From Anaerolineaceae bacterium (lineage in GTDB: Bacteria > Chloroflexota > Anaerolineae > Aggregatilineales > Phototrophicaceae), in NCBI GenBank assembly GCA_007693385.1, contig REDR01000070.1:1-58796 (forward strand): a stretch of 58,796 bases of DNA, given 5' to 3'. Shown one piece after another: positions 5,684 through 44,930 of this stretch. A program made the position numbers and the translations under genes. The notes under the pieces were generated by a model. It was not told the DNA's origin and did no database searches. It saw only the letters and a list, made by a program, of their open reading frames with translations. Each line of letters starts with the position of its first letter. Positions within the stretch are counted from its first letter, which is position 1.

Positions 5684-5720
5684 AACGCTAAAGATAGCAT
5701 CGCGATAAACGCATTTCAAG

Positions 5721-5726
5721 TACAAT
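5721..5726 (+). promoter_or_regulatory. -10 element, probable leaderless transcript
   Basis: TACAAT sits 6 nt before the ATG at 5733, so transcription would start at or next to the first base of the start codon. There is no Shine-Dalgarno sequence upstream and no convincing -35 box. Confidence 0.45.
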
Positions 5727-5732
5727 AGGCGT

Positions 5733-8084
5733 ATGGAAAACGAACACGACATCCCGACGGAAAATCTGCCCCCATGGATGCGCCACGCTCGCCAGAGCAT
5801 CGACTGGGGCATCTTGATTGTATTGAGCTTCAGCCTGCTGATCGCGTGGCCGTTCATCGCGCATGAGGGGTTGCCGCGCACCAATTCGGCGGAGAATCAC
5901 GTTTACGCGGTGGCTGAATATGCCGACGCCATCCGCGAAGGGACGCTTTACCCGCGCTGGAGCGCCTCATCCGCCGTCGGTTATGGCGCTCCGGTCTATA
6001 ACTACCAGCCGCCCGGCTTGCATTATCTGGCCGGTATGACCGATGTCCTGCTGTTGACGGAGAACCCGACGCTGGCGCTACGTCTGGTGCTGGTCGTCGC
6101 TTTCGCCTTTGCCGGTACGATGACCTACGTCGCGGTGTTGCGTGTGTCCGGCGCGGCCACCGCGATTCTGGCCGCCATGCTGTATCTATACAGCCCATAT
6201 ATCGGCCTGACCGCGCCGCATCTGCTCGGCGATTACGCGGGCGTGCTGACCTTCGCGCTGTATCCGGCTCTGCTATGGAGCGTGACGCGCCTGTTCGCCT
6301 TCCGCAACCCGTTTGATGTTCTGCTGTGCGCGTTGATCGTCGGCGGGCTGATTCTGGTGCGGCCTACCGCGTTGATGATCGCGCTGGTGCTGTGCGTGCC
6401 GGTGCCGGTCTGGTACGCATGGCATCGCCCCGATAACCCGTTTGATGTGCTGGTCGGCATGGGGCGCGTCGGCGTCGCGCTGATCGTCGGCGCGGGATTG
6501 TCCGCTTTTTTCTGGCTTCCGGCTCTGCTGGAAGCGGGCGCGGTGACGTGGGTGCACATCGGGCCGGACGTGGTGCGCCCCGCGTTGACGTGGGGCGAAA
6601 TATGGCTTCCGGCCATGCGGGTTGATCCGGCAGGGTTGATGCCCGCGCCACAGATGCGGATTGGCTGGCCGTCCCTGTTGGCGGTGTTGGCGGCGGGCGC
6701 GTTGATCGTCCGGCGCGGGCGGCGCGGCCAGTGGCCGTTAGCGGCGATGTGGCACGCGCTGTATCTGCTACTCGGCGCTGGCTTGTTGATGGCGGCGCTG
6801 ACCACATGGCCGGAATCGCGTGATCTGACCGCCGCCGTGATGTTGTGTGCCGCGCTGGGCGGGTCGCTGGCGCATGGCTGGGCGGAGGAGCGCATCGCGG
6901 GGAAGCGGCGCAGGCGCTATGTATTGCCGCCACTGCTGGCCGTCGTGTTTTTGCTATCCGCGCCGGTATGGTTGAGCGTTCGCCCCGCGCCGGTCTTCGA
7001 CGCGACGGATGATTATGCGCGGATCACGTATGAACAACAGGGATTCGGCACGGCGGTATTGCCCGCCAATCAGCCCGCACCGCTAACGTTGACCGTGCCC
7101 TATACGCTGAATCGTGTGCTGGTTGATGGCTACCGCGAAGGCGAGCCGGTACGGATACCCAACATTCGCCTGACCGGTGAAAAACGCGCCAATTTTATCT
7201 CGGCGGGCAGTCACAGTGACCGCTATCTGATCGACACGACGAATACCGTCGTCTTTGATGTGCTACGCGCCTATTCTGCTGGCTGGGTGGCGACGCTGGA
7301 TGGGCGGCGCGTGGCATTAGAGCCGAATCCGGCTAACGGCTTGATGCAATTGCGCGTCCCGCCGGTGCAGGGCGGCCAGCTTGATCTGCACTATGGCGCG
7401 ACGCCGCCGCGTGCGGTGGGTTGGCTGGTGGTGCTGGTCGTGCTCGTGTTCATGGCGGTGCGGACGGTGCGCGTCGCCTCGCGCTATGAAAGCCGCGCAC
7501 AGGACGACGATCTGCGTTATATGCCGTCCGGCGATGCGCGACTGGTGGCGGTGGTCTGCCTGTTGATGGGGTTGGCTGTCTTGCTGATCGCCTCGCCGCA
7601 TCGCGTCGTCTCCGTAGAGGCAGAGGCGGATTCCGCGCTGGCGCGATACACCGCGCTTGATTATCGCTCCGATGTCGGGCTGGAAGTGATCGCGCATAAC
7701 ATCGGCACGGACGACATCCACGCCCGCGCCGGTGATACGTTATCGCTGACGGTGGCATGGCGAACGCTGGTGCCCCTCCTGCACAATTATCAAGTGCGCG
7801 TCTCGCTGGTGACGGTGGCCGATGGCCGCCGCGTGATGGCCTCTCCGCCGCGCCACATCGGTGATTATCCGAGTCGGCGCTGGGAGGCCGGTTATTATGT
7901 GTTGCATCATGCCGAAATCCCGCTAGCGAATATTCCGTCGGGGCGCTATCAGATCGCGCTGGAATTGCTGATCTGTGATCCTGATTGCCGCGCCGATACG
8001 CGCCCGATCTTCTTCGATGAGGCCGGTGAATCGCTGGGCGCGATGTTGCGCTTTCCGCCGCAACTGGTTGTCGGTATGCGATAG
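5733..8084 (+). CDS. Large polytopic membrane protein, 6-pyruvoyl-tetrahydropterin-synthase-related/GT-C-like family
   Basis: 783 residues with roughly a dozen or more hydrophobic helices through residues 25-420 and again near 565-640. The first exterior loop carries GTLYPRWSASSAVGYGAPVYNYQPPG, the hallmark strip of bacterial membrane proteins annotated as 6-pyruvoyl-tetrahydropterin synthase-related and resembling YfhO/GT-C glycosyltransferases. These proteins are thought to handle lipid-linked sugars at the outer face of the membrane, although direct evidence is thin. The C-terminal about 140 residues form a soluble beta-rich exterior domain (GRRVMASPPRHIGDYPSRRWEAG). It is probably transcribed without a leader (see 5721). 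It stands alone between two transcription units. Confidence 0.72.
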   Translation: MENEHDIPTENLPPWMRHARQSIDWGILIVLSFSLLIAWPFIAHEGLPRTNSAENHVYAVAEYADAIREGTLYPRWSASSAVGYGAPVYNYQPPGLHYLAGMTDVLLLTENPTLALRLVLVVAFAFAGTMTYVAVLRVSGAATAILAAMLYLYSPYIGLTAPHLLGDYAGVLTFALYPALLWSVTRLFAFRNPFDVLLCALIVGGLILVRPTALMIALVLCVPVPVWYAWHRPDNPFDVLVGMGRVGVALIVGAGLSAFFWLPALLEAGAVTWVHIGPDVVRPALTWGEIWLPAMRVDPAGLMPAPQMRIGWPSLLAVLAAGALIVRRGRRGQWPLAAMWHALYLLLGAGLLMAALTTWPESRDLTAAVMLCAALGGSLAHGWAEERIAGKRRRRYVLPPLLAVVFLLSAPVWLSVRPAPVFDATDDYARITYEQQGFGTAVLPANQPAPLTLTVPYTLNRVLVDGYREGEPVRIPNIRLTGEKRANFISAGSHSDRYLIDTTNTVVFDVLRAYSAGWVATLDGRRVALEPNPANGLMQLRVPPVQGGQLDLHYGATPPRAVGWLVVLVVLVFMAVRTVRVASRYESRAQDDDLRYMPSGDARLVAVVCLLMGLAVLLIASPHRVVSVEAEADSALARYTALDYRSDVGLEVIAHNIGTDDIHARAGDTLSLTVAWRTLVPLLHNYQVRVSLVTVADGRRVMASPPRHIGDYPSRRWEAGYYVLHHAEIPLANIPSGRYQIALELLICDPDCRADTRPIFFDEAGESLGAMLRFPPQLVVGMR

Positions 8085-20670: not shown

Positions 20671-22305
20671 ATGATCTACTGGCTTTTGATTCTGGCGGCG
20701 GTGTGGGTGGTCGGTACGTGGGCGCGGGTGTATCGTCAGGCGCGGTACTTTCAGATCGAAGAATACATGAACGGGCGCTATCTGCGCTGGTGCGCCCGCG
20801 ATTTCACGCGCATATTTCCGTTGCGGGCGGTTATCATGCTGGCATTCGGCGCGGGGCTGGCATTGATCCCTATGGGATCGTCGCAGTCGCGTATGCCCGC
20901 CGTCATCGCCATCTTGATCGCGCTGATCGCGGTTTGGCCGCCGGATGAGGGCGTCGTCAAGAAGCCGTTCCGCCGCACCGGACGCGCCACGCGACTATTG
21001 GGCGCGGCCTTCGCGGTGACGCTATTCGACATCGCGCTGTATAGCTTTCTCATCAGCCTGCTGGATGTCGCCGCGTTTCGCTGGCAGGTGATCGCGCTGT
21101 CGCTGGCCGGCTTCGTGCTGTATTTCTCCGCGCCGTTGATTCTGGTCAGCGGCAACATCCTGATGATGCCGGTTGAGGCGCTGTTGCGGCGGCGATTCAT
21201 CGGCGCGGCGCGGGGCGTGATGCGCCAGCTACAGCCGACGGTGATCGGCATTACCGGCAGTTATGGCAAGACGACAACCAAGAACTTCGTCTCGGAAATC
21301 CTCAACGGGCGCTATAAAGCCTACGCCACGCCCAAGAGTTATAACACGATGATGGGCGTCTGTCTGGCGATCAACAACGATTTGAAAGACGATTACAGCG
21401 TCGATTATTTCGTGGTGGAGATGGGCGCATACGTGCGCGGCGAAATCGCCCGCATCTGCGCGTTGACCCCGCCCGATATTTCGATTGTGACCGCCGTCGG
21501 GCCGCAACATCTGGAGCGCTTCGGCTCGCTGGAAAACATCCAGACCGCGAAATATGAGATCATCAGGCATCTGCCGCCGGATGGCGTCGGCGTGTTCAAC
21601 TGGGATAACGAGTACGTGCGAGCGATGATGGACATGGGCTACCCGCAGACGCGCATCGGCGTTAGCTATACCGCATCGCCGGACGACCCCGACGCGCCGC
21701 GCTTCATCGCGGAGGACGTGAAAGAGACGCTAGACGGCCTATCATTCACGGTGATTGACCGTGAAACCGGCGAACGTGAACGCTTTCAGACGGCGGTCAT
21801 CGGCCTGCATAACGTGACTAACATCTTGCTGGCGACGGCTGTCGGCGTTCATGCGGGCTTGTCTCTGCGTGATGTCGCCTTCCGCGTGCGCGGCCTCAAA
21901 ATGCCGGAGAGCCGTCTGGCACGGCACACGGCGGCGGGCGGAATCACCGTGATTAACGATGGCTACAGCGCCAACCCGGACGGCATCGTGAGCGCGTTGC
22001 GCGTGCTGGCCTTGCACCAGACCGGACGGCGTGTGCTGGTCACGCCCGGTATGATCGAATTGGCCGATTTGCATTACAAAGAGAATGAACGACTGGGGCG
22101 TTTGGCGGCGGAACATGCCACCGATGTGATTCTGGTTGGCGCGACACAGACCCAACCGATTCACGATGGCCTGACCTCCGCCGGATTCGACGGTGAGCGC
22201 TTGCAGGTGGTTAATGCGCTACATGAGGCGGTGACGTGGATTGAGCGCAACCTGCAAGCGGGCGATACCGTGCTGTTCCTCAACGATCTGCCGGACACGT
22301 ACTAG
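20671..22305 (+). CDS. Mur ligase family protein (MurF-like) with N-terminal membrane domain
   Basis: 544 residues. Residues 1-175 contain about five hydrophobic helices, in place of the UDP-MurNAc-binding domain of MurF. From residue 190 the Mur ligase core starts: P-loop GITGSYGKTTTKN (G196-T202), then TPKSYNTMMGVCLAINNDL, VVEMGAYVRGEIARI and the C-terminal domain INDGYSANPDGIVSALRVL. These match MurF best. MurF adds D-Ala-D-Ala to the peptidoglycan stem; a membrane-bound relative could instead act on a lipid-linked or other amide substrate. Ddl, which makes D-Ala-D-Ala, is about 7 kb away. GGGGGAAG before the ATG is the ribosome site. Confidence 0.78.
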   Translation: MIYWLLILAAVWVVGTWARVYRQARYFQIEEYMNGRYLRWCARDFTRIFPLRAVIMLAFGAGLALIPMGSSQSRMPAVIAILIALIAVWPPDEGVVKKPFRRTGRATRLLGAAFAVTLFDIALYSFLISLLDVAAFRWQVIALSLAGFVLYFSAPLILVSGNILMMPVEALLRRRFIGAARGVMRQLQPTVIGITGSYGKTTTKNFVSEILNGRYKAYATPKSYNTMMGVCLAINNDLKDDYSVDYFVVEMGAYVRGEIARICALTPPDISIVTAVGPQHLERFGSLENIQTAKYEIIRHLPPDGVGVFNWDNEYVRAMMDMGYPQTRIGVSYTASPDDPDAPRFIAEDVKETLDGLSFTVIDRETGERERFQTAVIGLHNVTNILLATAVGVHAGLSLRDVAFRVRGLKMPESRLARHTAAGGITVINDGYSANPDGIVSALRVLALHQTGRRVLVTPGMIELADLHYKENERLGRLAAEHATDVILVGATQTQPIHDGLTSAGFDGERLQVVNALHEAVTWIERNLQAGDTVLFLNDLPDTY

Positions 22306-22306
22306 G

Positions 22307-23842
22307 CTAGAATTCCGCCTGCTTGGGGCGATATTGCACCGCCTCCGCGACGTGATGCACTTCGATGTGGTCGCTGTCGTTCAGGTCGGCGATGGTTCGG
22401 CTGAGCTTCAGCACGCGATGATAAGATCGGGCGCTGAGTTGCATCCGCCGCGTTGAGAGTTCCAGCAGTTGTTGTGCTTCCGGCCTGAGCTGGCACAGCG
22501 TTTGTATCTGCCCGACGTTCATATCGGAATTGGTGTATAGGCCGACCATATCGGCGAAGCGTTCGGCCTGTCGCACACGGGCGGATTCGACGCGGGCGCG
22601 GATGTCGGCGGATGTCTCGGCGCGTTCGTCGCTCATCAGCTTATCGTATTCCACACGCGGCACGTCAATATGAATGTCGATGCGATCTAGCAACGGCCCG
22701 GATAGCCGCGACTGATAGCGCTGGATCATGTTCGGCGAGCAAGTGCAGGTCTGTACCGGATCGCCGTAGTTCCCGCACGGGCACGGATTCCGCGCCGCGA
22801 CCAGCAGGAAATTAGCCGGAAAGCTGACGCTCCCTTTGGCGCGGCCTATCGTCACGACCTTATCTTCGATGGGCTGGCGCAACACTTCTAGCACTTTCGT
22901 CGGATACTCGACGATCTCATCCAGAAACAACACGCCGCGATGCGCCAGACTGATCTCGCCCGGCTTGGGGATGGTGCCGCCGCCGACTAAGCCAGCCTGC
23001 GAGATGGTATGGTGCGGTGCGCGGAACGAGCGCTGTTGTACCAGCCCGCGCCCGCCCAGCAAATCAGCAATCGAATAGATGCGCGTGACTTCCAGCGCTT
23101 CATCCATCGACAGGCGCGGCAAGATACCCGGCATCGCCCGCGCCATCAGGCTTTTGCCGGTGCCCGGCACGCCGGTCATGATGACGTTATGGCCGCCCGC
23201 CGCCGCGATTTCCAGCGCCCGCTTGACGTGTTGCTGGCCTTTGATGTCGGCGAAGTCGGTCAGGTTGTCGTCGCGTGGCATCGCGTCGAAGGGCTGAATC
23301 GGCGTTTGATGCGGTGGGATGCGCTTCAGGCCGTACAGATGCTCGACCATCTCGCCCAGCGTGTTCACCGGAATCACGTCGATACCCTCGATCAAGCCGG
23401 CCTCGTCCGCGTCTTCGGCGGGCACATAAACCGTCTGATAACCGGCCTGTTGTGCGGTGTACACCATCGGCAAAATGCCTTTGATGTGACGTACCGAGCC
23501 ATCCAGCGATAGCTCACCGAGAAACATCGCGCCTTCCAGCCGTTCAAGCGGTAGCTGGTCAGTGGCGGCCAGTATGCCGGTGGCGATGGATAGATCATAC
23601 GCGGTGCTGTGCTTGGGTAAATCCGCCGGAAACAGGTTGACGACATAGCCCTTGTTGGGGAATTGCAGGCCGCTATTCTTGATGGCGGCGCGGACACGCT
23701 CGCGGCTTTCGCGCACGGCGGAATCGGGCAAGCCAACCAGTGAAAATGACGGCAGTTGGGCGCGGGGGTTGAAGTCAACCTGTACCTCCACGATGCACCC
23801 TTCCAACCCGATCACCGCGCACGCCCGCACCATCGCTAACAT
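22307..23842 (-). CDS. YifB/ComM-family Mg-chelatase-like AAA+ ATPase
   Basis: 511 residues, standard length. The N-terminal ChlI-like domain (IEVQVDF in place of the common VEVDI, then LPSFSLVGLPDSAVRESRERVRAAIKNSGLQFP) is followed by the AAA+ core with Walker A GVPGTGKSLMARAMPGILP (about residues 222-240), GGTIPKPGEISLAHRGVLFLDE and a cysteine cluster NPCPCGNYGDPVQTCTCSP. The C-terminal part is RQAERFADM to SYHRVLKLSRTIADL. ComM is a helicase that promotes branch migration during natural transformation; YifB homologues are widespread. It converges with the Mur ligase gene, with only 1 nt between the stops. Confidence 0.92.
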   Translation of the reverse strand: MLAMVRACAVIGLEGCIVEVQVDFNPRAQLPSFSLVGLPDSAVRESRERVRAAIKNSGLQFPNKGYVVNLFPADLPKHSTAYDLSIATGILAATDQLPLERLEGAMFLGELSLDGSVRHIKGILPMVYTAQQAGYQTVYVPAEDADEAGLIEGIDVIPVNTLGEMVEHLYGLKRIPPHQTPIQPFDAMPRDDNLTDFADIKGQQHVKRALEIAAAGGHNVIMTGVPGTGKSLMARAMPGILPRLSMDEALEVTRIYSIADLLGGRGLVQQRSFRAPHHTISQAGLVGGGTIPKPGEISLAHRGVLFLDEIVEYPTKVLEVLRQPIEDKVVTIGRAKGSVSFPANFLLVAARNPCPCGNYGDPVQTCTCSPNMIQRYQSRLSGPLLDRIDIHIDVPRVEYDKLMSDERAETSADIRARVESARVRQAERFADMVGLYTNSDMNVGQIQTLCQLRPEAQQLLELSTRRMQLSARSYHRVLKLSRTIADLNDSDHIEVHHVAEAVQYRPKQAEF

Positions 23843-23980
23843 GATTCCCCCTCGCCACCCTACGGCTTGATAATGTCCTGTCAGTTTATTGCATGATTGC
23901 TCATGGGGTTAAGTATGCCCGCACCGGCGAATCCGCGCAAGTTGCGGATAACCCGCCGTTTTAGCGTAGGGCGTTCGTAC

Positions 23981-24008
23981 TTGGCGTTAGACCAACGTCA
24001 TGTAAAAT
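23981..24008 (+). promoter_or_regulatory. Candidate promoter for the RodZ-hydrolase fusion gene
   Basis: TTGGCG (23981-23986), 16-nt spacer, TAAAAT (24003-24008). The predicted start near 24015 lies about 20 nt before the TTG start and 50 nt before the alternative ATG. Confidence 0.4.
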
Positions 24009-24036
24009 AGACGCTATATGCGACACGCGACATACT

Positions 24037-26247
24037 TTGACCATCTGGGATAATCTACACGAACTGATGAACGGGTATACACTGGGACGACAATTACGCC
24101 AGACACGCGAAGGTTTAGGCTTGACGCTGGATGATGCCGTCGAGAGCTTACGAATCCGGCGGGCTGTGCTGGAGTCATTCGAGCTTGGCGATTTCGATGT
24201 ACCCGGCGCGTCAGAAGTGCAGGTGCGCGGTTTCGTGCGTAATTATGCGCGTTTCCTGCATCTCGATGAAGAAGCGGTACTGATGGATTATGAGGCGGCG
24301 CTAGTCGATGCGCGTAAGATGGCGAAGCGCCGCGAAGACCGCCGCCGCGCCCGTCTTGGTGATTCCGCCGAGACGCAACGTGCGATTCCGGCGGTGTCGC
24401 AGGTGCGCCCGCCCACGCCGCTACCACTGCCGCCGCGCAGTCGTGCCGCCCGCGCCCGTCGCCCGCGTTCATCCGGCGGCGGTGGCATGATGCTGATGCT
24501 GGTCGGGATGATGGTCGGTTCGGCCACGCTGACCGGCACATTCTTTCTGGTGCTGTATCTGCTGTATCAAATGTTTCCGGTGATCGCTGATGACTCCGGC
24601 GGCGTCGGCCAGCAGATCGTCGTGCCGCCGGTGGTGACGTTCACGCCCGCGCCGGGCACATCCGGCGGGCGCGGTGGTGCGCCGTCAGTGGGGGTGCTGG
24701 TGGCGCTGGAGGGCCGTCAGAACGGTTGGATGCAGGTCACGATTGACGGTCGGCCATTGGCGGCGCGTCCCATCGGCAACGGCGAGCGCGTCGAATACGT
24801 CGCCAATACCGAGATCATCGTGGAGACTTCCGACGCGGCGACGTTTGCAATCGCCTATAACGATGAGCAAGTCGGCATGGTCGGTCAGACTGGCGAGCCG
24901 GTGCGCGTCGTCTTCTCGCGGGATGGCTACGCGCTCAGTGATGATGTGGCGCTGGTCGGTCAACCGGCGATGCCCGATGAGTTGATCCTCATGCCGATTG
25001 TCACGCCGCGCGGCCTCGATCAAGTCTCGCGGCTGGATGCGCCGCATACCACCCGCTTTGTTGATCTCAAGCTGAATCGCCCGTTGACGTTGTTCTTCTA
25101 CGATGTGACCAACGATGAGATGCTGGCCGGAATCGACGTGGAGAAGCAGATGCCGGTTGTCTCCGCCGTCAAAGGGCCTATTTTGATGTACTTCTTCGAC
25201 GTTGTGCCGGAAGAAATCTGGAATACCGTGCCGGTTGAACTGTGGAATATCCGCGATGAGGCGCTCGTGCCGGAATTCTACCGCGCCACATGGAACCAGC
25301 ACCGCGAAATCCTGCGCGATCTGTACCGGATGATCGTCGTCAGCGATAACACCTCAACCGGTAACGCGCTCCGCTATGCGTATGATTATTATAGTCCGCC
25401 CGGCATGAACCCGATTCAGGCGTTTAATCATTGGTCGATGGAAGTCGTCGGCATGTCGGCGGAGTCCGGGATGCGCCAATGGGATGAGGGCGGCACGAAC
25501 GATCCATCGTGGATTGAGCCACGCTTCAACACGCGCATGACCTCTATCTACAATTCGATGCGCCAGTACAACAATACATATTCCGCGCTCGATCTCGCCC
25601 GTTTCTACACATGGGTGTATACCCAAGCGCCGCGTCAGGTTTATCAGCGCACGTTTGATGTGATGTCGATTGTCGAAGGTTCACCCGGATTTTTGGAAGA
25701 TACCGCGTTCAGTCTGGGCGGGACGCCGGTCAGCAAAGATGGCTATGTCGGGCCCGGTGCGCGGAATAACTTCCGCGACGAGCATCTGACCGCCGACGCT
25801 GGCCTGATCTTACTCAATGACCGCGCCTATATCGTGGTGACGATGGGCGTCGATGGTGGTGATCGCCTGTCGTACATCTACGGCGAAATCCGGCGCGTCA
25901 TCAATCAAGAGCGCCGCACGCTGTATTGGCCGTCCGGCGTCAGCTTCGCCGCGTGGGTGCGTAGCCCGGAAGGTCCGTATGAAGGCCGCCCGTTGAGCGT
26001 GGAAGGCGCTAATTTTGTGCTGGATTACCTGAAAGAAGTCGGTCAGGAGCCGGTGCGTAACGTCAACATGGATGACCGCCGCTTCTACTTCGATCAAGCG
26101 CGGGCGGTGTGGTTCGCGTTCTTCCCCAATGACACCGTGCCCAGTGCCCGCACGCCGGAGCAGGAGCGCGTCATCGCCGCCCGTTATGGCGGTAGCGGCG
26201 AGACGATTCATCAGATCGCCGTCGAACTGAACTACGTGCGCCCGTGA
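24037..26247 (+). CDS. RodZ-like HTH/transmembrane protein fused to a serine beta-lactamase-fold domain
   Basis: 736 residues from a TTG; an ATG at 24067 is an alternative start. Residues about 15-95 are a RodZ-type HTH (GRQLRQTREGLGLTLDDAVE, then VQVRGFVRNYARFLHL). A basic linker leads to one membrane helix (about 149-180). Residues about 215-315 resemble the exterior beta domain of RodZ. Residues about 335-650 form a class A beta-lactamase/PBP-like hydrolase with S376-A-V-K379 (SxxK), S436-D-N438 (SxN) and S566-K567-D-G569 in the KTG position. RodZ links MreB to the cell-wall machinery; the attached serine hydrolase could be a D,D-carboxypeptidase, lactamase or inactive sensor. No mre genes are in the window. 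Function of the fusion is inferred. Confidence 0.8.
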   Translation: MTIWDNLHELMNGYTLGRQLRQTREGLGLTLDDAVESLRIRRAVLESFELGDFDVPGASEVQVRGFVRNYARFLHLDEEAVLMDYEAALVDARKMAKRREDRRRARLGDSAETQRAIPAVSQVRPPTPLPLPPRSRAARARRPRSSGGGGMMLMLVGMMVGSATLTGTFFLVLYLLYQMFPVIADDSGGVGQQIVVPPVVTFTPAPGTSGGRGGAPSVGVLVALEGRQNGWMQVTIDGRPLAARPIGNGERVEYVANTEIIVETSDAATFAIAYNDEQVGMVGQTGEPVRVVFSRDGYALSDDVALVGQPAMPDELILMPIVTPRGLDQVSRLDAPHTTRFVDLKLNRPLTLFFYDVTNDEMLAGIDVEKQMPVVSAVKGPILMYFFDVVPEEIWNTVPVELWNIRDEALVPEFYRATWNQHREILRDLYRMIVVSDNTSTGNALRYAYDYYSPPGMNPIQAFNHWSMEVVGMSAESGMRQWDEGGTNDPSWIEPRFNTRMTSIYNSMRQYNNTYSALDLARFYTWVYTQAPRQVYQRTFDVMSIVEGSPGFLEDTAFSLGGTPVSKDGYVGPGARNNFRDEHLTADAGLILLNDRAYIVVTMGVDGGDRLSYIYGEIRRVINQERRTLYWPSGVSFAAWVRSPEGPYEGRPLSVEGANFVLDYLKEVGQEPVRNVNMDDRRFYFDQARAVWFAFFPNDTVPSARTPEQERVIAARYGGSGETIHQIAVELNYVRP

Positions 26248-26264
26248 TCCACGCGCAAGCATGA

Positions 26265-26284
26265 GGCGTAGCACCGGCTACGCC
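26265..26284. repeat. Intergenic palindrome GGCGTAGC/GCTACGCC, copy 1
   Basis: A perfect 8-bp inverted repeat with a 4-nt loop, 18 nt past the stop of the fusion gene and between two converging genes. It may act as a bidirectional terminator. Related copies are at 33189, 36228 and 41385-41449. Confidence 0.55.
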
Positions 26285-26341
26285 CCTACATCGACATATT
26301 GCCGTGAAAATCACCGGCATCTGTATTTTTGCTGTGGCGGC

Positions 26342-27565
26342 CTAACCGTCCGCCGCCAGCGCCTCCAGAATGGCGGGCGGTATTAGCACGCCGTCAATCG
26401 TATGGATGACGCCATTCGTCGCGCCGCGATCCGGCGTGGAGATGAAGACGCTTTGATTCAGCCGCACACGTCCGGTATCGGTATCCACGCCGATGAATGT
26501 TTCCGCACCGTTCAGCAGTAGGGCACTGTTCAGCGAGTCGCCCGCCGATGCGCGGATGTCGCGGGCGCTCAACGCGCCGTCTACCAGATGATAGGCGATG
26601 ATTTGCCGTGCGATAGTCGGCTCGGCCAGCAGATCATCCACGCGCAACCCTAGACGGTTGAGCGTGACCACAAACGCGCTGTTGGTCGGCGCGAAAAGCG
26701 TCACGTCTACATCCGCGCTGTTCAACAGGTCGATATAATCCGGCGCGACGGCCAACATCAGATCGCGCAGGGTGGAATAGCGGCTATCACTGGCGACCCG
26801 TCCGGCGATGGTCAGCCGGTCAGCGAACGTGGCGACGGTGATGATCTCGCTTTGTGGCGCGTCGGCGTGAATCTCGGCGCCGGTCAACTGCAAGCCGTCG
26901 GTTGTATCAACTCCGCCACCCATGCCACCCGCTTCTTGACCGCTTCCAAACGTCACACGCGGGGGCGTCTGGGCAGTCGGGGCGGGGTCGGCGGCGTCTG
27001 GTGTGCTGGCTGTGCCGCGCATCGCCTCTAGCGCGTCCTGCACGGTGAACGGGAACACCATATCTGATAGCGTGTGGACGATGCCGTTACTGGCTGGACG
27101 GTCAAACGGCGCGATGACGCGCACGATGTCATTCAGCCGCACCACGCCGCCCACCACATTCACGCGCACCCGCGCTTCGGATAGCGTCTCCATCGCGCCG
27201 CCGTCGAGTTCGGCGACCTGTCCGGCGGTCAGGGCGGCGGGCGCTACGTGATACAGCAGTAACTCGGTGACGATGGCCGGATCACCTAGCAGAGTCTCCA
27301 GATCAGTCTCGAAGAATGATGCCAGATTGCGGAATGCCTGATTGGTCGGCGCGAAAAGCGTCAATTGCCCGCCCGCGTCGCTCAACACCTCAAGGATGAC
27401 CGGATCGGCGGACTGTACCGCCGAGAATAGCAGGCTGTAGCGCTCGTCAGTGGTGACGATCTCGGCGATGGTGGGTAGCGCTCCGTCGTCCTGTGCGCTG
27501 ATGGGCGCTGTGAACAGCACCAGCGAGAGCGCAACGAGCAAGCCCGAAATGAGACGTTTCATCAT
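26342..27565 (-). CDS. Secreted protein with two FAS1 (fasciclin) domains
   Basis: About 407 residues from the ATG at 27565, preceded by AAGGAG; an upstream in-frame ATG would only add a non-hydrophobic leader. A signal peptide (LISGLLVALSLVLFTAPISAQ) precedes two FAS1 modules of about 135 residues. Each has the H1 motif LTLFAPTNQAF or VTLFAPTNSAF, a YH motif (LLLYHVAPA, IIAYHLVDG) and an H2-type end (ASNGIVHTLSDM, ATNGVIHTIDGV). The linker between them is Gly/Met/Asp-rich (GGMGGGVDTTDG). FAS1 domains mediate adhesion between cells or to matrix. The protein shares its plan with the neighbour at 27673, suggesting duplication; a terminator hairpin separates them. Confidence 0.9.
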   Translation of the reverse strand: MMKRLISGLLVALSLVLFTAPISAQDDGALPTIAEIVTTDERYSLLFSAVQSADPVILEVLSDAGGQLTLFAPTNQAFRNLASFFETDLETLLGDPAIVTELLLYHVAPAALTAGQVAELDGGAMETLSEARVRVNVVGGVVRLNDIVRVIAPFDRPASNGIVHTLSDMVFPFTVQDALEAMRGTASTPDAADPAPTAQTPPRVTFGSGQEAGGMGGGVDTTDGLQLTGAEIHADAPQSEIITVATFADRLTIAGRVASDSRYSTLRDLMLAVAPDYIDLLNSADVDVTLFAPTNSAFVVTLNRLGLRVDDLLAEPTIARQIIAYHLVDGALSARDIRASAGDSLNSALLLNGAETFIGVDTDTGRVRLNQSVFISTPDRGATNGVIHTIDGVLIPPAILEALAADG

Positions 27566-27606
27566 GGCTTTTCTCCTTACATTATTCGATTGTGTGTTAA
27601 ACCAAA

Positions 27607-27629
27607 AGAGGCCGGACAAGCCGACCTCT
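27607..27629 (-). terminator. Rho-independent terminator of the upstream FAS1 gene
   Basis: On the minus strand a 9-bp stem (one U-G pair) with a 5-nt loop is followed by UUUU-GG-U. It lies about 45 nt past the stop at 27673, so it ends the 27673-28938 transcript before the second FAS1 gene. Confidence 0.6.
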
Positions 27630-27672
27630 CTTTAGTGGTTAAAGCAAAGGTATAACGATGTGGCCGGTAGCC

Positions 27673-28938
27673 TTAGTCCATGCTGATGCCGAGCGCACCC
27701 AGCGTCGCAATGGTGCTTTCGGAGAGCAGAACGCCGTCGATGACGTGGATCACGCCATTGCTGGCGAAGATGTCTGTCGCCACGACGTTGACCATACCGT
27801 TCAGCACGACGCCACCGTCAACGATGCTGATGACGATGGATTCGCCCTGCACGGTCTCAACCGCTTCGCCGTCCAGCGTCACCACGACTTCCGCCGGGAC
27901 GGTGCCCTCGACGACATGGTAAGCCAGAATCTCAACGAGGATGTCGGGGAACATCATAGCGGCTTCGATGTCGATGCCGAGCGCGGCACCCAGCGCGTCG
28001 AAGGCGTCGTTGGTCGGCGCGAACACGGTGAAGTCACTCGCCGGATCGCTCAGCAGTTCGAGGAAGTCCGGCGCGGCACCGCTCAACACCATGACCAGCG
28101 TCGAGAAGTCTTCGTTACCAGCCGCGATTTCAGCGATGGTCGGCTCGCCAGCTTCTTCTTCGGCTTCGTCACCAGCGCTACCCATCAAACGGCCAACGGC
28201 GGAGGCGATGTCCTCACCAGTCGGCGGGCCAGCTTCTTCTTCCTCTTCTTCTTCGGCTTCGCCAGCGCTACCGAGCAGGCGGCCAACGGCGGAAGCGATG
28301 TCCTCACCAGTCGGCGGGCCAGCTTCTTCTTCTTCAGCCGCTTCCGGCGCATCACCGGCGATTATCGCGGCAACCGCGTCTTGCAGTGACGGCGGGATCA
28401 GCACACTTTCGATGATGTGGATCACGCCATTATCGGCGAAGAAGTCCAGACCGCCATCGGTACGCAGGAACGCATCGTTGATGAAGATGCCGCGATCCGT
28501 CGATATCACTTCGATTGTCTCGCCCAGCAGGGTCTCAACGACGAAGCCGCCCTGATTTTCTTCCAGCAAGGCCAGCACATCGGTTGAAGTCGCACGGATG
28601 GGCAGGACGTGGTACAGCAGAATATCAGTCAGCAGTTCGGGGCTATTCAACACCGCATCCAGCACTTCTTCCGGCAGGGCGTTGAAAGCGCGATCTGCGG
28701 GTGCAAATACAGTCAGGCGTTGTGCGGGATCGGATAGCGTCTCGGCGATGATGTCATCAGCCGCCTGCACCGCCGCTAGAAGCGCGGTGAACTGCGCGGG
28801 GTTGCCGCTACTGGCACGGACGACGACATCGACGATAGTGTTGCTGTCTTCTTCTTGCGCTGATACCGTGAATGCCATCAGTCCCGCAACGGCGGCCAAG
28901 AGCATGGCAAGTACAACGGACATCCTAATATGTTTCAT
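27673..28938 (-). CDS. Secreted protein with two FAS1 domains and an acidic repeat linker
   Basis: About 421 residues from the ATG at 28938 (GGGAG upstream); the signal peptide is MSVVLAMLLAAVAGLMAFTVSAQ. Two FAS1 modules flank an unusual linker. Module 1 has LTVFAPADRAFNALP, ILLYHVLPI and ADNGVIHIIESV; module 2 has FTVFAPTNDAFDALG, ILAYHVVEG and ASNGVIHVIDGV. The linker holds two copies of a 30-residue unit with a glutamate run followed by AGPPTGEDIASAVGRL. At the DNA level this is a direct repeat with 90-nt period (28172-28332). FAS1 proteins are adhesins; the acidic linker may bind cations or act as a spacer. Its leader contains a hairpin (28969-29006). Confidence 0.9.
   Translation of the reverse strand: MKHIRMSVVLAMLLAAVAGLMAFTVSAQEEDSNTIVDVVVRASSGNPAQFTALLAAVQAADDIIAETLSDPAQRLTVFAPADRAFNALPEEVLDAVLNSPELLTDILLYHVLPIRATSTDVLALLEENQGGFVVETLLGETIEVISTDRGIFINDAFLRTDGGLDFFADNGVIHIIESVLIPPSLQDAVAAIIAGDAPEAAEEEEAGPPTGEDIASAVGRLLGSAGEAEEEEEEEAGPPTGEDIASAVGRLMGSAGDEAEEEAGEPTIAEIAAGNEDFSTLVMVLSGAAPDFLELLSDPASDFTVFAPTNDAFDALGAALGIDIEAAMMFPDILVEILAYHVVEGTVPAEVVVTLDGEAVETVQGESIVISIVDGGVVLNGMVNVVATDIFASNGVIHVIDGVLLSESTIATLGALGISMD
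28172..28332. repeat. Direct repeat, period 90 nt, inside the FAS1 gene
   Basis: Units at 28172-28242 and 28262-28332 are nearly identical and encode the tandem acidic AGPPTGEDIASAVGRL linker. The repeat keeps the reading frame, so copy number could vary by slippage without breaking the gene. Confidence 0.8.
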
Positions 28939-28968
28939 ACAAAATTCTCCCTGTTGTCGTGGTGAAAA

Positions 28969-29006
28969 AGCCGCTTTTCGGTTCAAAAAAGCAAATATAA
29001 GCGGCT
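28969..29006 (-). promoter_or_regulatory. Terminator-like hairpin in the leader of the FAS1 gene
   Basis: On the minus strand AGCCGCTT, 22-nt loop, AAGCGGCT, then a T-run (five Ts) about 30 nt before the start at 28938. No gene lies upstream on this strand within 240 nt, so this looks like a leader attenuator rather than an end-of-gene terminator. Confidence 0.42.
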
Positions 29007-29108
29007 GAAAACAAAATACATTGCCTCTCTCTCAATTGTCTGCATTCCCTATAAGGCAAATATTAGCGCTTTTTAAGAAAGAAATGAGCGCCTTGTCGGC
29101 ACTTGTCA

Positions 29109-29137
29109 TTGACAATCGCTGTGTTTGCTTGCATATT
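29109..29137 (+). promoter_or_regulatory. Sigma-70-type promoter for ddl
   Basis: TTGACA (29109-29114), 17-nt spacer, CATATT (29132-29137). The predicted start near 29144 falls downstream of the ATG at 29021, which supports the ATG at 29183 as the real start of Ddl. Confidence 0.55.
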
Positions 29138-29182
29138 AGCCGCAATCACAGTCAGGAATCAGCGAAGAAAGTGACACACGGC

Positions 29183-30391
29183 ATGAGTGCAAAGCGTAAA
29201 CAGACGATCGGGGTGATATTCGGTGGGCGCAGTGTCGAGCATGACGTGAGCATCGTCACCGGTCATCAGATCATGCGGGCATTTGACCGTGAACGTTATG
29301 AAGTCGTGCCGGTTTTCATCACCCGTGACGGCAAATGGTACACCGGCGAGCCGCTATTGGAGCTGGATAACTTCCGCGATGAAGAAGTCATCAGCTATCG
29401 CGGCGTGCATAGCGCGGTGCTATCGCCCAGCGTCCAACATCACGGCCTGATCGTCAATCCGATCTCTGGTCGCCTGCAACGGAGCGAAGTCAAGCGTCTT
29501 GATGTGGTGTTTCCGGCGGTGCATGGTTCGCACGGTGAGGACGGCACATTGCAGGGCTTATGCGAACTGGCCGACATCCCCTATGTCGGATGCGGCGTGC
29601 TGGCCTCCGCGCTGGCGAACGATAAAGCGATGACAAAATCCGTCCTGCAAGCGGCGGAAATTCCGGTGATTGACGGCCTGACGCTGACCCGCGATAGCTG
29701 GCTGGATGATCGGGAGGGGACGGTGGCGCGTATCGCGGAAGCGCTGGGCTATCCGGTATTCGTCAAACCGGCGACGCTCGGCTCTAGCATCGGGGTGGCG
29801 CGGGCGGATGACGAAAACGCGCTGACGCTGGCTATCGACATCGCCGCCAGCTTTGATCGCCATTTGATCGTAGAACGCGCGGCGGTCAAGGCGGTAGAGA
29901 TCAACTGCGCGGTGATGGGTTACGGCGATGATATGCAGGCCAGCGTACTCGAACAGCCGGTATCGTGGGAAGAATTCCTGACATACGAAGAGAAATACAT
30001 GCGCGGCGGCGGCGGCATGAAAAGCGCGGAGCGCATCATCCCCGCGCCACTAGATGAGGCGCTCACCGCCCGCATTCAGCAGACCGCCGTTTCTGCGTTC
30101 CGCGCGGTGGGGGGGCACGGCATCGCCCGCATTGATTTTCTGTACGATGAATCCACCGATCAGGTCTATCTCAATGAGATCAACACCATGCCCGGCTCGC
30201 TGGCCTTCTATTTGTGGCAGGAAACCGGACTTAGCGCGGGGGAAGTGGTCGATAAGCTGGTATCGCTGGCGGGATCGGCCTATGCCGACAAGCGGCGCAA
30301 CACCTACAACTATCAGACTAGCCTGATTAACCTGACCGCCTCACGCGGGTTGAAGGGCGTCAAAGGGAGCAAGGCGGGCGGTAGCGTTTAA
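29183..30391 (+). CDS. ddl: D-alanine-D-alanine ligase
   Basis: 402 residues from the ATG at 29183, chosen because Ddl begins IGVIFGGRSVEHDVSIVTG and because the promoter lies just upstream. An ATP-grasp enzyme that joins two D-alanines for peptidoglycan. Visible: VFPAVHGSHGEDGTLQG, PYVGCGVLASALANDKAMTK, FVKPATLGSSIGVARA, GGMKSAERIIPAPL and the C-terminal ARIDFLYDESTDQVYLNEINTMPGSLAFYLW with the Mg-binding Asp, Glu and Asn. It is the longer Ddl type (VanA-like length), with a basic disordered tail. It ends one base before the convergent response regulator. Substrate for the Mur ligase at 20671 may come from here. Confidence 0.95.
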   Translation: MSAKRKQTIGVIFGGRSVEHDVSIVTGHQIMRAFDRERYEVVPVFITRDGKWYTGEPLLELDNFRDEEVISYRGVHSAVLSPSVQHHGLIVNPISGRLQRSEVKRLDVVFPAVHGSHGEDGTLQGLCELADIPYVGCGVLASALANDKAMTKSVLQAAEIPVIDGLTLTRDSWLDDREGTVARIAEALGYPVFVKPATLGSSIGVARADDENALTLAIDIAASFDRHLIVERAAVKAVEINCAVMGYGDDMQASVLEQPVSWEEFLTYEEKYMRGGGGMKSAERIIPAPLDEALTARIQQTAVSAFRAVGGHGIARIDFLYDESTDQVYLNEINTMPGSLAFYLWQETGLSAGEVVDKLVSLAGSAYADKRRNTYNYQTSLINLTASRGLKGVKGSKAGGSV

Positions 30392-39570: not shown

Positions 39571-39649
39571 AGAAATGTGACTATAGACCGTTTTCAGCCT
39601 CACCCGCTTGTGCGATGAAAGCGGGCGGCAAACAGGGAGGACAATCAAG

Positions 39650-40969
39650 TTGGCTTCAAAATCGTCTGAAGTAAGTTTAGACACGCCGGAATTTGCCGTA
39701 CCGTCCGCGAATCGTGTGGCGGTGAATCGCTACGTCGCGGACATGATGCCGATTCCCGCCTCGCGCATGTTCGAGATCAAAGAAGCGCTGGCGAAGTACA
39801 AAGAGACGGCTGGCGCAGATGCGCCGATTTACGATGCCTCGCAGGGAGACGGCGGCGCTAGCTTGCCCGGCGTGCCCGCTCACATTCTGGAACGCGCCTA
39901 CCAGCTACAGGTCGAGCATGGCACCGGCTACGATAAACCGTATGGCACGGACGCCTTCCGCAAAATCGCCGCCGAGAACTACTGGCAACTGGATGCCGCC
40001 ACCGGCTGGGGGCCACAGAACATCATCTTCACGCAGGGCGGGCGTGATGGCCTGCAAAAAGCGTATGGCGCGATGATCGCGCTGGGCAACCAACAGATTG
40101 GCGATGCGCTGGTCGTCAGCCGCGTGCCGTGGGTCAGCTATAACTGGGGGCCGTATGATGTCGGCTTGAACGTGCTACGAGCGCCCGGACGCCCCGAAGA
40201 CCAATGGCGCTACACGCCGGAAGGCATCAAAGCGTGTGTGGACTACGCCGAACGCGAAGGGCGCAAAGTGGCCGGACTGGTCATCACATCGCCGGATAAC
40301 CCCACCGGACGCACCATCCCGCTATCCGAACAAATCGAACTGGCACGCACCGCGCTAGAGGCCGGTTATCCGTTCGTGCTGTTCGACTGGATTTACCATT
40401 GGGTGAGCGACGGCGGCCCCAACGACATCAACGAAGTGCTGAACGCCTTTTCCCCCGCCGAGCGTGATCGGCTGATCTTTCTGGATGGCATCACCAAGAG
40501 TCTCGGCGCGTCGAATATTCGTAGCGCGCATCTAGTGGCGGGCGCGGGCTTCGTCAAGTACATCAACAGCCGCGCTTCGCATGGCGTCATCCCCAGTTTT
40601 TACGCGCAAGCGGTGGCGATGGCCGCGTATGAAGAAGGCTTCGGCAAGGCCGCCGCGCCGATCATCTCCGCGTGTGGCGAAAGCCGCGTTGTGATGCGCG
40701 AAGTGCTGGGCGCGTCCGGCGTCGATTATGTGCTGGGAGATGGCTATTACGCTTTTATCGACATCAGCAAGTACATTCAGGCGGCGGGCATGAGCGACGG
40801 CGCGGCGGTTAGCGCATGGCTCGGCCAGACGTACGGCGTCACCGTTGTGCCCGGCGTGCATTTCTCGTCGGCGGGCGCGGACTGGGTGCGCTTCTCGTAT
40901 GCGCTCCCGCCGGAAAAGACGCGCCTCGCCGTTGACCGCTTCTTTGAAGGGCTGAACAGCTTGCTTTAA
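39650..40969 (+). CDS. Class I/II PLP-dependent aminotransferase
   Basis: About 439 residues from a TTG at 39650. GGGAGG at 39635-39640 lies 9 nt upstream, which favours this start over the open frame beginning at 39608. Fold-type I marks: GDGGASLPGVPAHILERAYQL, TQGGRDGLQKAYGAM, VSRVPWVSYNWGPYDVG, ITSPDNPTGRTIPLSEQ, FDWIYHWVSDGG and the PLP-lysine region FLDGITKSLGASNIRSAHLV. The C-terminal VTVVPGVHFSSAGADWVRFSYALP supplies the substrate-carboxylate Arg. It moves an amino group between an amino acid and a 2-oxoacid; the specific amino acid is not clear. Confidence 0.9.
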   Translation: MASKSSEVSLDTPEFAVPSANRVAVNRYVADMMPIPASRMFEIKEALAKYKETAGADAPIYDASQGDGGASLPGVPAHILERAYQLQVEHGTGYDKPYGTDAFRKIAAENYWQLDAATGWGPQNIIFTQGGRDGLQKAYGAMIALGNQQIGDALVVSRVPWVSYNWGPYDVGLNVLRAPGRPEDQWRYTPEGIKACVDYAEREGRKVAGLVITSPDNPTGRTIPLSEQIELARTALEAGYPFVLFDWIYHWVSDGGPNDINEVLNAFSPAERDRLIFLDGITKSLGASNIRSAHLVAGAGFVKYINSRASHGVIPSFYAQAVAMAAYEEGFGKAAAPIISACGESRVVMREVLGASGVDYVLGDGYYAFIDISKYIQAAGMSDGAAVSAWLGQTYGVTVVPGVHFSSAGADWVRFSYALPPEKTRLAVDRFFEGLNSLL

Positions 40970-43112: not shown

Positions 43113-44930
43113 TCAATCCCGCGATGATCGCATCTGAGCGCCCATCTGCCTCAGATAGGTCACGATGTCGGTGCGGTCAGTTGAAAATTGGTCGTGCATC
43201 ACCGGATATTTTATCAACTGTCCGGCGCCGGGTCGATTCAAAATTGACGCATCCAGCCGGAAACCCGCCGCCCGCATACCGGTCACCACGTCTCCGTTGA
43301 GCATCTCGGCCTCCGTGATGCGATCATGTGCGATCAAATCCGCCAGCAGAATCTTGATCTGACGCTCGTCCTCATCACGAATCGGGCGATAGCAAGCATG
43401 GCGCAAGCGTCCGTTCGGGTCAAAAGATAGCGTCAATCCCCCGAATAAGTCAACCTTCGCGTCGTTGAATTGCCGGAATTGCTCGCCGTCTAGCGTGATG
43501 CGCCGCGTCAAGAAGTACGTCAGGAAGGCGTAATCGTTGGCGTTGCGATAGGCCGCCATCGGCACGAACTCCGCGTCCGGATCGAGTTCTAGCGCCGGGA
43601 TGATGTCGCGCTCTAAAAACAGCGCGGACGCCATCGCCGAGTTGATCGTGTCCGGCAGTGATACGGCGGGCATCTGGCGCATTTGTGCGATGTATGCGCC
43701 GCAATCGTCGGCTGTGATGATGCGGCGCTCGTCCAGACGGCGGGCGATCACGTCATAGTAGCGCCCATTGTACAGGATTTCGTCGGCGGCCAGCAGACAC
43801 CGCCCGACATCGGTATAGTCGAATTCGCCTATCGCGCCGATCTCAATGCTAAAGACCAGCATCGCACCGGCGGCATCGCGGGCGCGGTAGATGGCGATAT
43901 GCGGCGGGCAGGTCTGCGTCTGATATTCGTATATGCCGGAGAAAATGTCATAGAATAGGCCGGTCAGCAGGCGTGAATAGTTGTGCGGCTGGCGGCCTAG
44001 CGTGAATTCCGGCTCGACGGGATCATATTCTAGCTCGTCGAACGGCATCAGCACGAAATCATTGAAGGCGTTACGCAGATAGATGTTGTGCGCCTGTAGC
44101 CGCAGGTCGTCGGCTTCTAACAGCGCTTGCGTCAGATGCTCCGCGACTTGCGTCACGAAGTTGTTGGTGCGCAGATCGCCGTCCGTCCAGTCCAGCAAGC
44201 GCCGCACCAGCGAATCATCGTGCAGGGCGACCAGCATCGAGGTGATGTCGGCGAAGCTCTCGTGATAGGCTGACGGCCCCAGTCCGAACGATTCGTTGTA
44301 CAGATCGCGCAGGCCATCGAGAACGGCGTGCGCCGCTTCATGCGCGATGATGTCGGCGCTATGCGCGGTGCTGATGCGGTCTCCGTTGGCCTCAAAAGCG
44401 TGGAAACCGAGCAGGCGATCCTGTTCGCTGTAGAACGCATTGGCCTGTCGTCCGGCGTGCGGGTTGACCGTCAGGCGTGGCGAGGGGAACGCCCACGGCA
44501 AGGCGCGACGGGCGTAACGCTCGTACATGCGTAGCGTGAACGTGGTGAAATAAAACACATTGACCTGATCGAAGCGCGGATCACCCGGCCAGAACATATA
44601 ATTGCCGTCTTCGTCGGGCACGGCCAGTTGACTGGGGCGGCCTTGCACGCGCACCCGCGAGTTAATCAGGCCGGGCGCGATGTCGTGCGCGTTCATCGTC
44701 CGCACTTCCGGCTCGCTGATGAACGGGTCTTGCGGATAGATCGTGACCAGTACGCTGTCGTTGGCCTCAATCGGCAATGGCTCGCGGTGCAGGGTGAATG
44801 TGCTGGTGGAGCGATGCGCCAGCACCGCCGGAATGTTGGCGCGGCTGTGTTCTTGCAGGCGGCGCAGGCGATTGTACGCGCTGGCGCTGTGTTCGGTGTG
44901 TTTGTGCGGCTTGTTGGCATCGTCGGGCAT
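43113..44930 (-). CDS. Gluzincin-like metallopeptidase (M4/M36-type motif), no signal peptide
   Basis: 605 residues. SADIIAHEAAHAVLDGL gives HExxH at H197-H201, and HESFADITSMLVAL supplies a glutamate at 224, the third zinc ligand of thermolysin-like enzymes; the next Asp228 fits the ESxxD pattern. That region is flanked by a loop FYSEQDRLLGFHAFEANGD, as in M4/M36 peptidases. The N-terminus is hydrophilic with no signal peptide or helix, so it is cytosolic or exported unusually. Residues 430-600 form a separate C-terminal region without a recognised fold. AGGAG lies upstream of the ATG. It is divergent from aconitase, with a palindrome between. Confidence 0.65.
   Translation of the reverse strand: MPDDANKPHKHTEHSASAYNRLRRLQEHSRANIPAVLAHRSTSTFTLHREPLPIEANDSVLVTIYPQDPFISEPEVRTMNAHDIAPGLINSRVRVQGRPSQLAVPDEDGNYMFWPGDPRFDQVNVFYFTTFTLRMYERYARRALPWAFPSPRLTVNPHAGRQANAFYSEQDRLLGFHAFEANGDRISTAHSADIIAHEAAHAVLDGLRDLYNESFGLGPSAYHESFADITSMLVALHDDSLVRRLLDWTDGDLRTNNFVTQVAEHLTQALLEADDLRLQAHNIYLRNAFNDFVLMPFDELEYDPVEPEFTLGRQPHNYSRLLTGLFYDIFSGIYEYQTQTCPPHIAIYRARDAAGAMLVFSIEIGAIGEFDYTDVGRCLLAADEILYNGRYYDVIARRLDERRIITADDCGAYIAQMRQMPAVSLPDTINSAMASALFLERDIIPALELDPDAEFVPMAAYRNANDYAFLTYFLTRRITLDGEQFRQFNDAKVDLFGGLTLSFDPNGRLRHACYRPIRDEDERQIKILLADLIAHDRITEAEMLNGDVVTGMRAAGFRLDASILNRPGAGQLIKYPVMHDQFSTDRTDIVTYLRQMGAQMRSSRD

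Follow-up and report, generated by a model that had tools for sequence, protein, structure and literature searches.

The window analysed here, 58,796 nucleotides of contig REDR01000070.1 from the Anaerolineaceae bacterium assembly GCA_007693385.1 (phylum Chloroflexota), contains on its forward strand a gene in which a RodZ-type protein, with a helix-turn-helix (HTH) domain and a single membrane helix, is followed in the same chain by a complete domain of the class A beta-lactamase/PBP-A fold. In the assembled sequence this fusion gene is real, and the union of its parts, each of which is known, is a new architecture that we met once. Judging by the analogy with its relatives, the product is most likely a D,D-carboxypeptidase anchored by RodZ. 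The gene and its features are the following:

24037..26247, + strand: whole fusion gene, 736 residues from the TTG at 24037; possible ATG start at 24067
24091..24279, + strand: predicted cytosolic HTH_25 domain, residues 19-81 (Pfam E 1e-14)
24490..24570, + strand: predicted single membrane helix, residues about 152-178 (hydropathy scan; helix at 151-178 in the full-length model, at low confidence)
24709..24903, + strand: putative RodZ_C-like, presumably exterior domain, residues 225-289 (Pfam match under the cut-off)
24937..25005, + strand: junction, residues about 301-323, where the RodZ homology ends and the enzyme homology starts, without an export segment of the stand-alone type
25027..25914, + strand: domain of the class A beta-lactamase/PBP-A fold, residues about 331-626 (model residues 13-308 aligned to PBP-A and class A enzymes)
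25162..25173, + strand: SxxK motif, S376-A-V-K379, predicted nucleophile and base (S and K each in 27/27 rows)
25342..25350, + strand: SDN motif, S436-D-N438 (S and N each in 27/27 rows)
25516..25518, + strand: E494, acid of a D/E-x-R-F loop motif, candidate deacylation base or salt-bridge residue (D/E in 26/27 rows)
25732..25743, + strand: SKDG, S566-G569, equivalent of the KTG motif (K and G in 26/26 rows)
25915..26244, + strand: C-terminal helical extension, residues 627-736, common to the stand-alone relatives (block of helices in the model, with a predicted local distance difference test score, pLDDT, of 84-95)

A single reading frame

The frame is free of stop codons from 23965 to 26244 on the plus strand, and the stop codon occupies 26245-26247. 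Translation from the TTG at 24037 yields 736 residues and from the ATG at 24067 (residue 11) 726 residues; the latter may be the true start, because it agrees better with the position where the paralogous RodZ-like protein of the same genome (L002, see below) begins. The first-pass annotation, made from the letters alone, had read a RodZ-type HTH domain, a single membrane helix and a serine beta-lactamase-like fold in one chain, and had located SAVK at residues 376-379, SDN at 436-438 and SKDG at 566-569; the stop-free frame and the Pfam domains found in both halves bear out the architecture, and the translation carries the motif residues exactly as claimed. Two separate genes are ruled out for the assembled sequence, both by the frame, which is open throughout, and by the enzyme half, which lacks an export segment. 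An internal ATG at 24970 (M312, opening the stretch MPDEL) is preceded by no Shine-Dalgarno sequence evident by eye, and the mean hydropathy over 19 residues, weak at residue 304 (1.3), does not exceed this value across the junction. The GC content at third codon positions (GC3) is 0.71 and 0.72 in the two halves, and their codon scores are -1.02 and -0.89, with 13 genes of the window spanning -1.08 to -0.88; that both halves fall within the range of the window was counted in favour of a genuine fusion.

The enzyme half

A model of residues 319-736, built with nine related rows in its alignment, has a mean pLDDT of 89 and contains the fold that the first-pass annotation had expected. The top row in VIA-align is PBP-A (2j7v; Z 23.7, root mean square deviation 3.1, 226 aligned residues, 20% identity), and on the strength of the model the enzyme half is a complete domain of the class A beta-lactamase/PBP-A fold, with a similarity far above chance. 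Pfam places Beta-lactamase2 (PF13354) at residues 353-601 (E 4e-5; 23.4 bits, cut-off 22), and PF13354 matched 9 of 11 enzyme rows at E 0.01; at the same threshold no NCBIfam model matched any of 11 members of the enzyme family. An 11-row profile of the enzyme, compared with solved structures, ranked PBP-A best (E 2.3e-6), followed by PER-2 and LRA-5, and its alignment lays SKDG on the KTG of PER-2; in the profile alignment with PBP-A, SxxK and SxN are aligned and the KxG region is shifted, so that this last part was not relied upon. The enzyme half searched by phmmer against the same kind of database gave a weak match to PBP-A (2j9o, E 0.08). No Pfam family matched the C-terminal extension (residues 627-736).

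The fusion contains SxxK, SxN and KxG in this order. Their conservation was assessed in those frames of the examined loci that match the enzyme profile at E <1e-15, giving 27 rows from 26 different genes (one gene occurs twice with different truncation, one row stops before KxG, and four weaker matches, which are other PF13354 proteins, were excluded). S376, K379, S436, N438 and W482 are found in 27/27 rows and K567 and G569 in 26/26, and the position between the latter two (568) is D in 18 rows, N in 3, and S, G, E, H or Y once each. True class A beta-lactamases have KTG or KSG as their triad; the fusion has KDG, which the first-pass annotation had taken as a ground for doubting activity. With K and G invariant and D in 18 of 26 rows, KDG is the usual form of the family; the doubt has thus lost its ground, and KDG as the mark of a dead enzyme is ruled out. 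To judge from the kept motifs, the fusion enzyme is probably active.

Position 494 is D in 24 rows, E in 2 (the window and L067) and V in 1, and at position 483 an acid, D or E, stands in 14 of 27 rows. The loop motif of class A enzymes reads E-x-x-L-N. The idea that EPRFN (494-498) is an exact copy of it is weakened by the relatives, which read D-x-R-F and do not conserve the asparagine; this region may hold the deacylation base. Inspection by eye of the PF13354 proteins of the order in L078-L096 revealed no clear E-x-x-L-N motif, so that these proteins gave no yardstick for Glu166.

The RodZ-type half and MreB

The HTH_25 domain of the fusion scores 54.3 bits in Pfam, against a cut-off of 24.6. 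Compared by phmmer with solved structures, the N-terminus matches 4gqm (residues 15-89) and 2wus (residues 15-104), the latter being the RodZ of Thermotoga maritima. Residues 152-184 form the sole segment with a 19-residue hydropathy above 1.6, and the net charge is +11 before it (residues 85-151) and -2 after it; because a net-positive stretch precedes the helix, the usual positive-inside rule would place the HTH domain in the cytosol and the remainder of the protein outside. The full-length model, in which the RodZ half had no related alignment rows and the mean pLDDT is 68 overall, was used for the position of the helix alone. Among genomes of the order, most long RodZ matches stop somewhere around residues 280-328, with a single one reaching 356; on the enzyme side, the closest match begins at 324.

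The whole fusion protein, searched against its own genome (G000) at E up to 1, matched three places, namely itself, L002 and L003. L002 is a RodZ-like gene without the enzyme, adjoining rplI (recognised by eye), whose product is 37% identical over residues 10-315 and whose RodZ_C domain passes the Pfam cut-off with 31.6 bits; L003 codes for an enzyme-like protein on its own, hydrophobic at the N-terminus (29% identity). HTH_25 matches stronger than 1e-10 make up 47 rows in 46 of 47 family genomes, G000 alone having two, and in the alignment used for the tree none of the 26 family relatives exceeds 36% identity with the RodZ half. The RodZ half is therefore a divergent second copy, unsure in its origin and in its position in the tree. 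A recent duplication of the genome's own rodZ is not supported, as the fused copy lies on a long branch away from L002. Some RodZ-like proteins of Chloroflexota contain two HTH_25 domains per chain (e.g. L023 1-2424, a frame of 808 residues with RodZ_C at its end according to Pfam), and in family f2 two neighbouring HTH matches, often in one frame, occur in many genomes among the matches listed.

The link to the cytoskeleton, which had been suggested as a possibility, is in keeping with the gene content of G000: two strong mreB matches (PF06723) are present, and one mreC match lies about 0.5 kb from one of them on the same strand.

Relatives and occurrence

The enzyme half is most closely related to proteins encoded on their own, L065 (= G498) and L066, which are 51% and 49% identical and become alignable from about residue 324. 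Both start, as judged by eye, with a short hydrophobic export-like segment that the fusion lacks, and the fusion may have originated when the export-like segment of a stand-alone enzyme was replaced by a whole RodZ-type protein. Lacking such a segment, the enzyme half must depend on the RodZ helix for its export, and the fact that the enzyme could not leave the cell without this helix argues that the fusion is functional.

At 1e-5, 159 of 400 genomes of the phylum match the fusion, and among the matches listed G000 alone is covered over both halves. In the order, 94 of 101 genomes match at 0.001, mostly through the RodZ half; in four besides G000 (G498, G454, G451 and G441) the enzyme half is strongly matched too, on another contig than the RodZ match. 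Residues 339-648 alone found matches in 3 of 298 class genomes, the one in G447 being weak and situated in an apparently unrelated binding protein, and the enzyme profile matched 7 of 396 class genomes at 1e-10. Within the family, 14 of 98 genomes match the enzyme half at 1e-5, four of them with E <1e-100 (G000, G498, G742 and G752); the frames in G498 and G742 (441 and 470 codons) are too short for the RodZ half, the match in G752 begins at a contig edge, and that in G844 falls within a frame of 691. A scan of genome contigs revealed nine enzyme loci, and none of the eight with a known N-terminus is fused; eight loci are labelled Chloroflexi, Phototrophicales (placed by NCBI in Chloroflexota), Anaerolineae or Anaerolineales, and one Nanoarchaeota. 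A joint search with profile hidden Markov models of all frames of 107 and then 135 loci found both domains in no frame except the window gene and its copies. A literature search, which covered few subscription papers, found no paper on a RodZ-beta-lactamase or RodZ-peptidase fusion among the papers listed.

Other members of the enzyme family have partners of their own. In L070 and L072 the PF13354 domain and a YkuD L,D-transpeptidase domain share one chain according to Pfam, and L071 looks alike by eye; these genes (L070 5743-7815, L072 5746-7809, L071 5740-7803) possibly encode a 3-3 cross-linking enzyme that is self-contained in supplying its tetrapeptide donor itself. L069 contains two adjacent genes of the family with overlapping frames (5014-6843 and from 6768; also in L034), each with an unassigned N-terminal region of about 200 residues, in which a VanW-like domain was suspected by eye; this assignment was dropped, as Pfam at E 0.01 gave only PF13354 in L034. 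A divergent member of the family, L073 2884-4191, is located on the contig labelled Nanoarchaeota and may be due to transfer or to wrong binning.

Proposed function and alternatives

Within the Rod complex, RodZ is not known to carry an enzyme domain itself. With a confidence that we would put at even, we propose that a RodZ-type protein arisen by duplication came to serve in this bacterium as membrane anchor for a secreted serine D,D-peptidase, whose trimming activity would be confined to sites directed by MreB. In this scenario the HTH domain would remain in the cytosol and probably dock on MreB or the Rod complex, the single helix would span the membrane, and the RodZ_C-like domain and the linker would keep the enzyme outside, near the growing wall. 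There Ser376 would act on stem peptides at their D-Ala-D-Ala end, Lys379 and the Ser436/Lys567 pair serving as proton relays, and the last D-Ala would be removed, the enzyme thus acting as a D,D-carboxypeptidase and perhaps as a D,D-endopeptidase, restricted to places where MreB directs elongation. More tentatively, and with less than even expectation, we consider that MreB, via the RodZ head, directly carries the D,D-carboxypeptidase along the outer face of the membrane within one polypeptide, so that the precursors of cross-links would be trimmed where the cytoskeleton moves.

The preference for a D,D-peptidase is based on PBP-A as the closest solved relative by profile, on the YkuD partners in L070 and L072, and on the anchor associated with wall growth in the fusion itself. 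PBP-A is described as a D,D-carboxypeptidase and endopeptidase (PMC11189452). For the L,D-transpeptidase YcbB of E. coli, another study states that tetrapeptide donors are used and pentapeptides are not, and that the D,D-carboxypeptidase DacA/PBP5 makes the tetrapeptides (PMC5089857). Since YcbB needs donors made by DacA, the combination of a carboxypeptidase with an L,D-transpeptidase in one chain makes sense, and the YkuD partners suggest a D,D-carboxypeptidase that acts on peptidoglycan rather than a resistance enzyme.

Several observations weigh against our proposal. HTH_25 by itself is not diagnostic, as it was matched in 13 of 14 control genomes, archaea among them; RodZ_C in the fusion (21.3 bits) stays under its cut-off (23.9); and the NCBIfam RodZ models score far below their cut-offs on the N-terminus (NF041534 33 vs 375 bits, NF008109 26.3 vs 208), although these models are a weak test for this phylum, because their names suggest RodZ of Streptococcus and enterobacteria. 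The RodZ half has a branch of 2.06 changes per column in the tree, and because of this great length its function may have shifted. F60 and Y64 of E. coli RodZ and Y66 and F70 of the Chlamydia protein are required for MreB binding (PMC4047632); in the alignments to 2wus and 4gqm these contact positions correspond to Q62 and F66 of the fusion, the aromatic residue being lost at the first and kept at the second. On the side of the enzyme, the class A beta-lactamases are tied with PBP-A in VIA-align (Z 23.0-23.6; the best 50 rows lie within 1 Z), so that the two are not separated by this comparison, and the best 50 Foldseek rows are all class A beta-lactamases (E about 1e-7 to 1e-6), with PBP-A absent among them. 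Finally, of the pairing of the two domains that the first-pass annotation had wished to see surveyed in related genomes, the union in one chain stands for G000, but a second genome did not emerge: the fusion occurs in none of the 101 order genomes besides G000 and in 1 of the 98 family genomes, again G000, a single draft assembly.

Some of these observations would fit another arrangement, which we regard as rather unlikely, in which the RodZ half is a mere anchor and export device for the D,D-peptidase, with MreB binding lost and no control of position. Its very long branch and the Q62 at the MreB-contact position agree with such a loss, and an ordinary RodZ-like gene remains in G000 for the work with MreB. 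However, the HTH domain, needless for an anchor, is kept in full and in the scan of family genomes scores as well in the fused copy as in the other RodZ-like gene of G000 (59.4 vs 54.2 bits), and Q62 is usual in the RodZ-like proteins of relatives too. In an alignment of 55 rows (the window protein and 54 RodZ-type loci, the best matches from the own-genome, phylum and order searches) position 62 is Q in 41 and Y in 7, position 66 is F in 25, M in 18 and L in 9, and Y70 is present in 54. The fused copy thus resembles its relatives at the MreB surface, and the presence of both contact aromatics is a poor membership trait in this phylum; this likeness neither proves nor excludes binding of MreB by the HTH half, which we consider plausible.

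The results of the structure comparisons could also be taken to indicate a tethered true beta-lactamase that shields the growth zone from beta-lactams, which appears improbable. Class A enzymes fill the best 50 Foldseek rows and come close in VIA-align, and the acid at position 494, located between SxN and KxG in 26 of 27 rows, could act as Glu166, a position given in PMC11189452 as the trait separating beta-lactamases from PBP-A. Yet PBP-A is the best match by profile and tied best in structure, no NCBIfam model recognises the 11 family members, and in two relatives the domain is joined to an enzyme of the wall. We are distinctly sceptical about a one-component membrane sensor, in which a muropeptide or a beta-lactam would acylate the outer domain and thereby alter what the cytosolic HTH domain binds, be it nucleic acid or MreB. 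An inner HTH domain and an outer penicillin-recognising fold in one chain are what such a sensor would require, and Shigella RodZ is reported to bind RNA (PMC7018016). On the other hand, both domains are found in no other frame of the loci examined, and elsewhere members of the enzyme family occur by themselves or, in L070 and L072, together with a wall enzyme. The set of catalytic residues is complete, although a pure sensor could do without it, and by sequence the N-terminal half is closest to RodZ and its look-alikes, the RodZ-like proteins. As the fusion is found in one genome only, an assembly fault is still conceivable, but that the gene is an artefact joining unrelated genes, or an inactive fusion heading for loss, is very improbable, for against the origin from a single assembled genome of 137 contigs and the absence from the other family genomes stand the in-frame join in the middle of a 58.8 kb contig, codon use typical of the window in both halves, the lack in G000 of a near-identical separate copy of either half (37% and 29% at best), the absence of the export segment that the enzyme would need if alone, and the intact HTH domain and catalytic residues.

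If the RodZ-anchored D,D-peptidase that we propose exists, it has implications beyond this genome. The way in which the cytosolic position of MreB is conveyed to wall enzymes outside is usually studied via multi-protein complexes (MreC, MreD, RodZ, RodA and PBP2); a natural link of a RodZ head and a D,D-peptidase in one chain would make this question testable with one gene. The fusion further suggests that enzymes outside the membrane can acquire RodZ paralogs as their anchors, and with it Chloroflexota gain a PBP-A-like family whose KDG triad is mostly conserved.

Genomic surroundings

The fusion gene stands alone, its flanks being on the opposite strand: a Mg-chelatase/ComM-like gene (22307-23842) lies before it and a fasciclin gene (26342-27619) after it. 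Promoter-like matches upstream, at 23981 and 24027, carry little weight as evidence (3 matches in 23700-26500, vs 1.4 +/- 1.2 in shuffled sequences). According to Pfam, a Mur ligase (20671-22305) and a D-Ala-D-Ala ligase (29021-30391) are encoded less than 5 kb from the fusion, and the 20 other frames of the window that were scanned have mixed functions. None of the genes adjoining the enzyme gene in L065, L066, L067, L068 and L120 matched the neighbours of the fusion in the window. One other gene is common to the window and L120, an aminotransferase with 78.8% identity (window 39608-40966, L120 147-1481), 9-14 kb from the enzyme gene in each. The region 26342-28986 contains two minus-strand genes with two fasciclin stretches each, the second of which has an acidic repeat, EEAGPPTGEDIASAVGRL. 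Two further frames of the window, 5733-8084 (783 residues) and 43113-44930 (605 residues), had no Pfam match at E 1e-5.

Comparison with known systems

With the class A beta-lactamases (PER-2, BlaC, PenP, LRA-5) the fusion enzyme has the fold and the order of motifs in common, but the identity is 9-16%, the triad is KDG, and for Glu166 there are candidate counterparts in E494 and D483. PBP-A of Thermosynechococcus (Tll2115; 2j7v, 2j9o), the best solved relative by profile and the top row in VIA-align, shares SxxK and SxN with the fusion, which differs in having KDG instead of KTG (as read from the PBP-A chain), a longer loop between SxN and KxG, the C-terminal helical extension and the RodZ anchor. 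The stand-alone relatives from Chloroflexota (L065 = G498, L066 and L067) are closer, with 49-51% identity over the enzyme and the C-terminal extension and with the same SKDG; L065 and L066 are devoid of the RodZ part, and the sequence of L067 ends at a contig edge. The PF13354-YkuD proteins (L070, L072 and, by eye, L071) possess the same domain and motifs as the fusion, from which they differ by their C-terminal YkuD partner and by KNG or KSG in place of its triad. At the other end of the chain, RodZ (YfgA) of E. coli, of Thermotoga maritima (2wus) and of Chlamydia (CT009, 4gqm) shares with the fusion the HTH_25 domain, one membrane helix and, putatively, a RodZ_C-like outer domain. In contrast to these proteins, the fusion is the second RodZ-type gene of its genome, has Q62 in place of the first MreB-contact aromatic, and carries about 410 more residues in its predicted exterior part, which constitute an enzyme.

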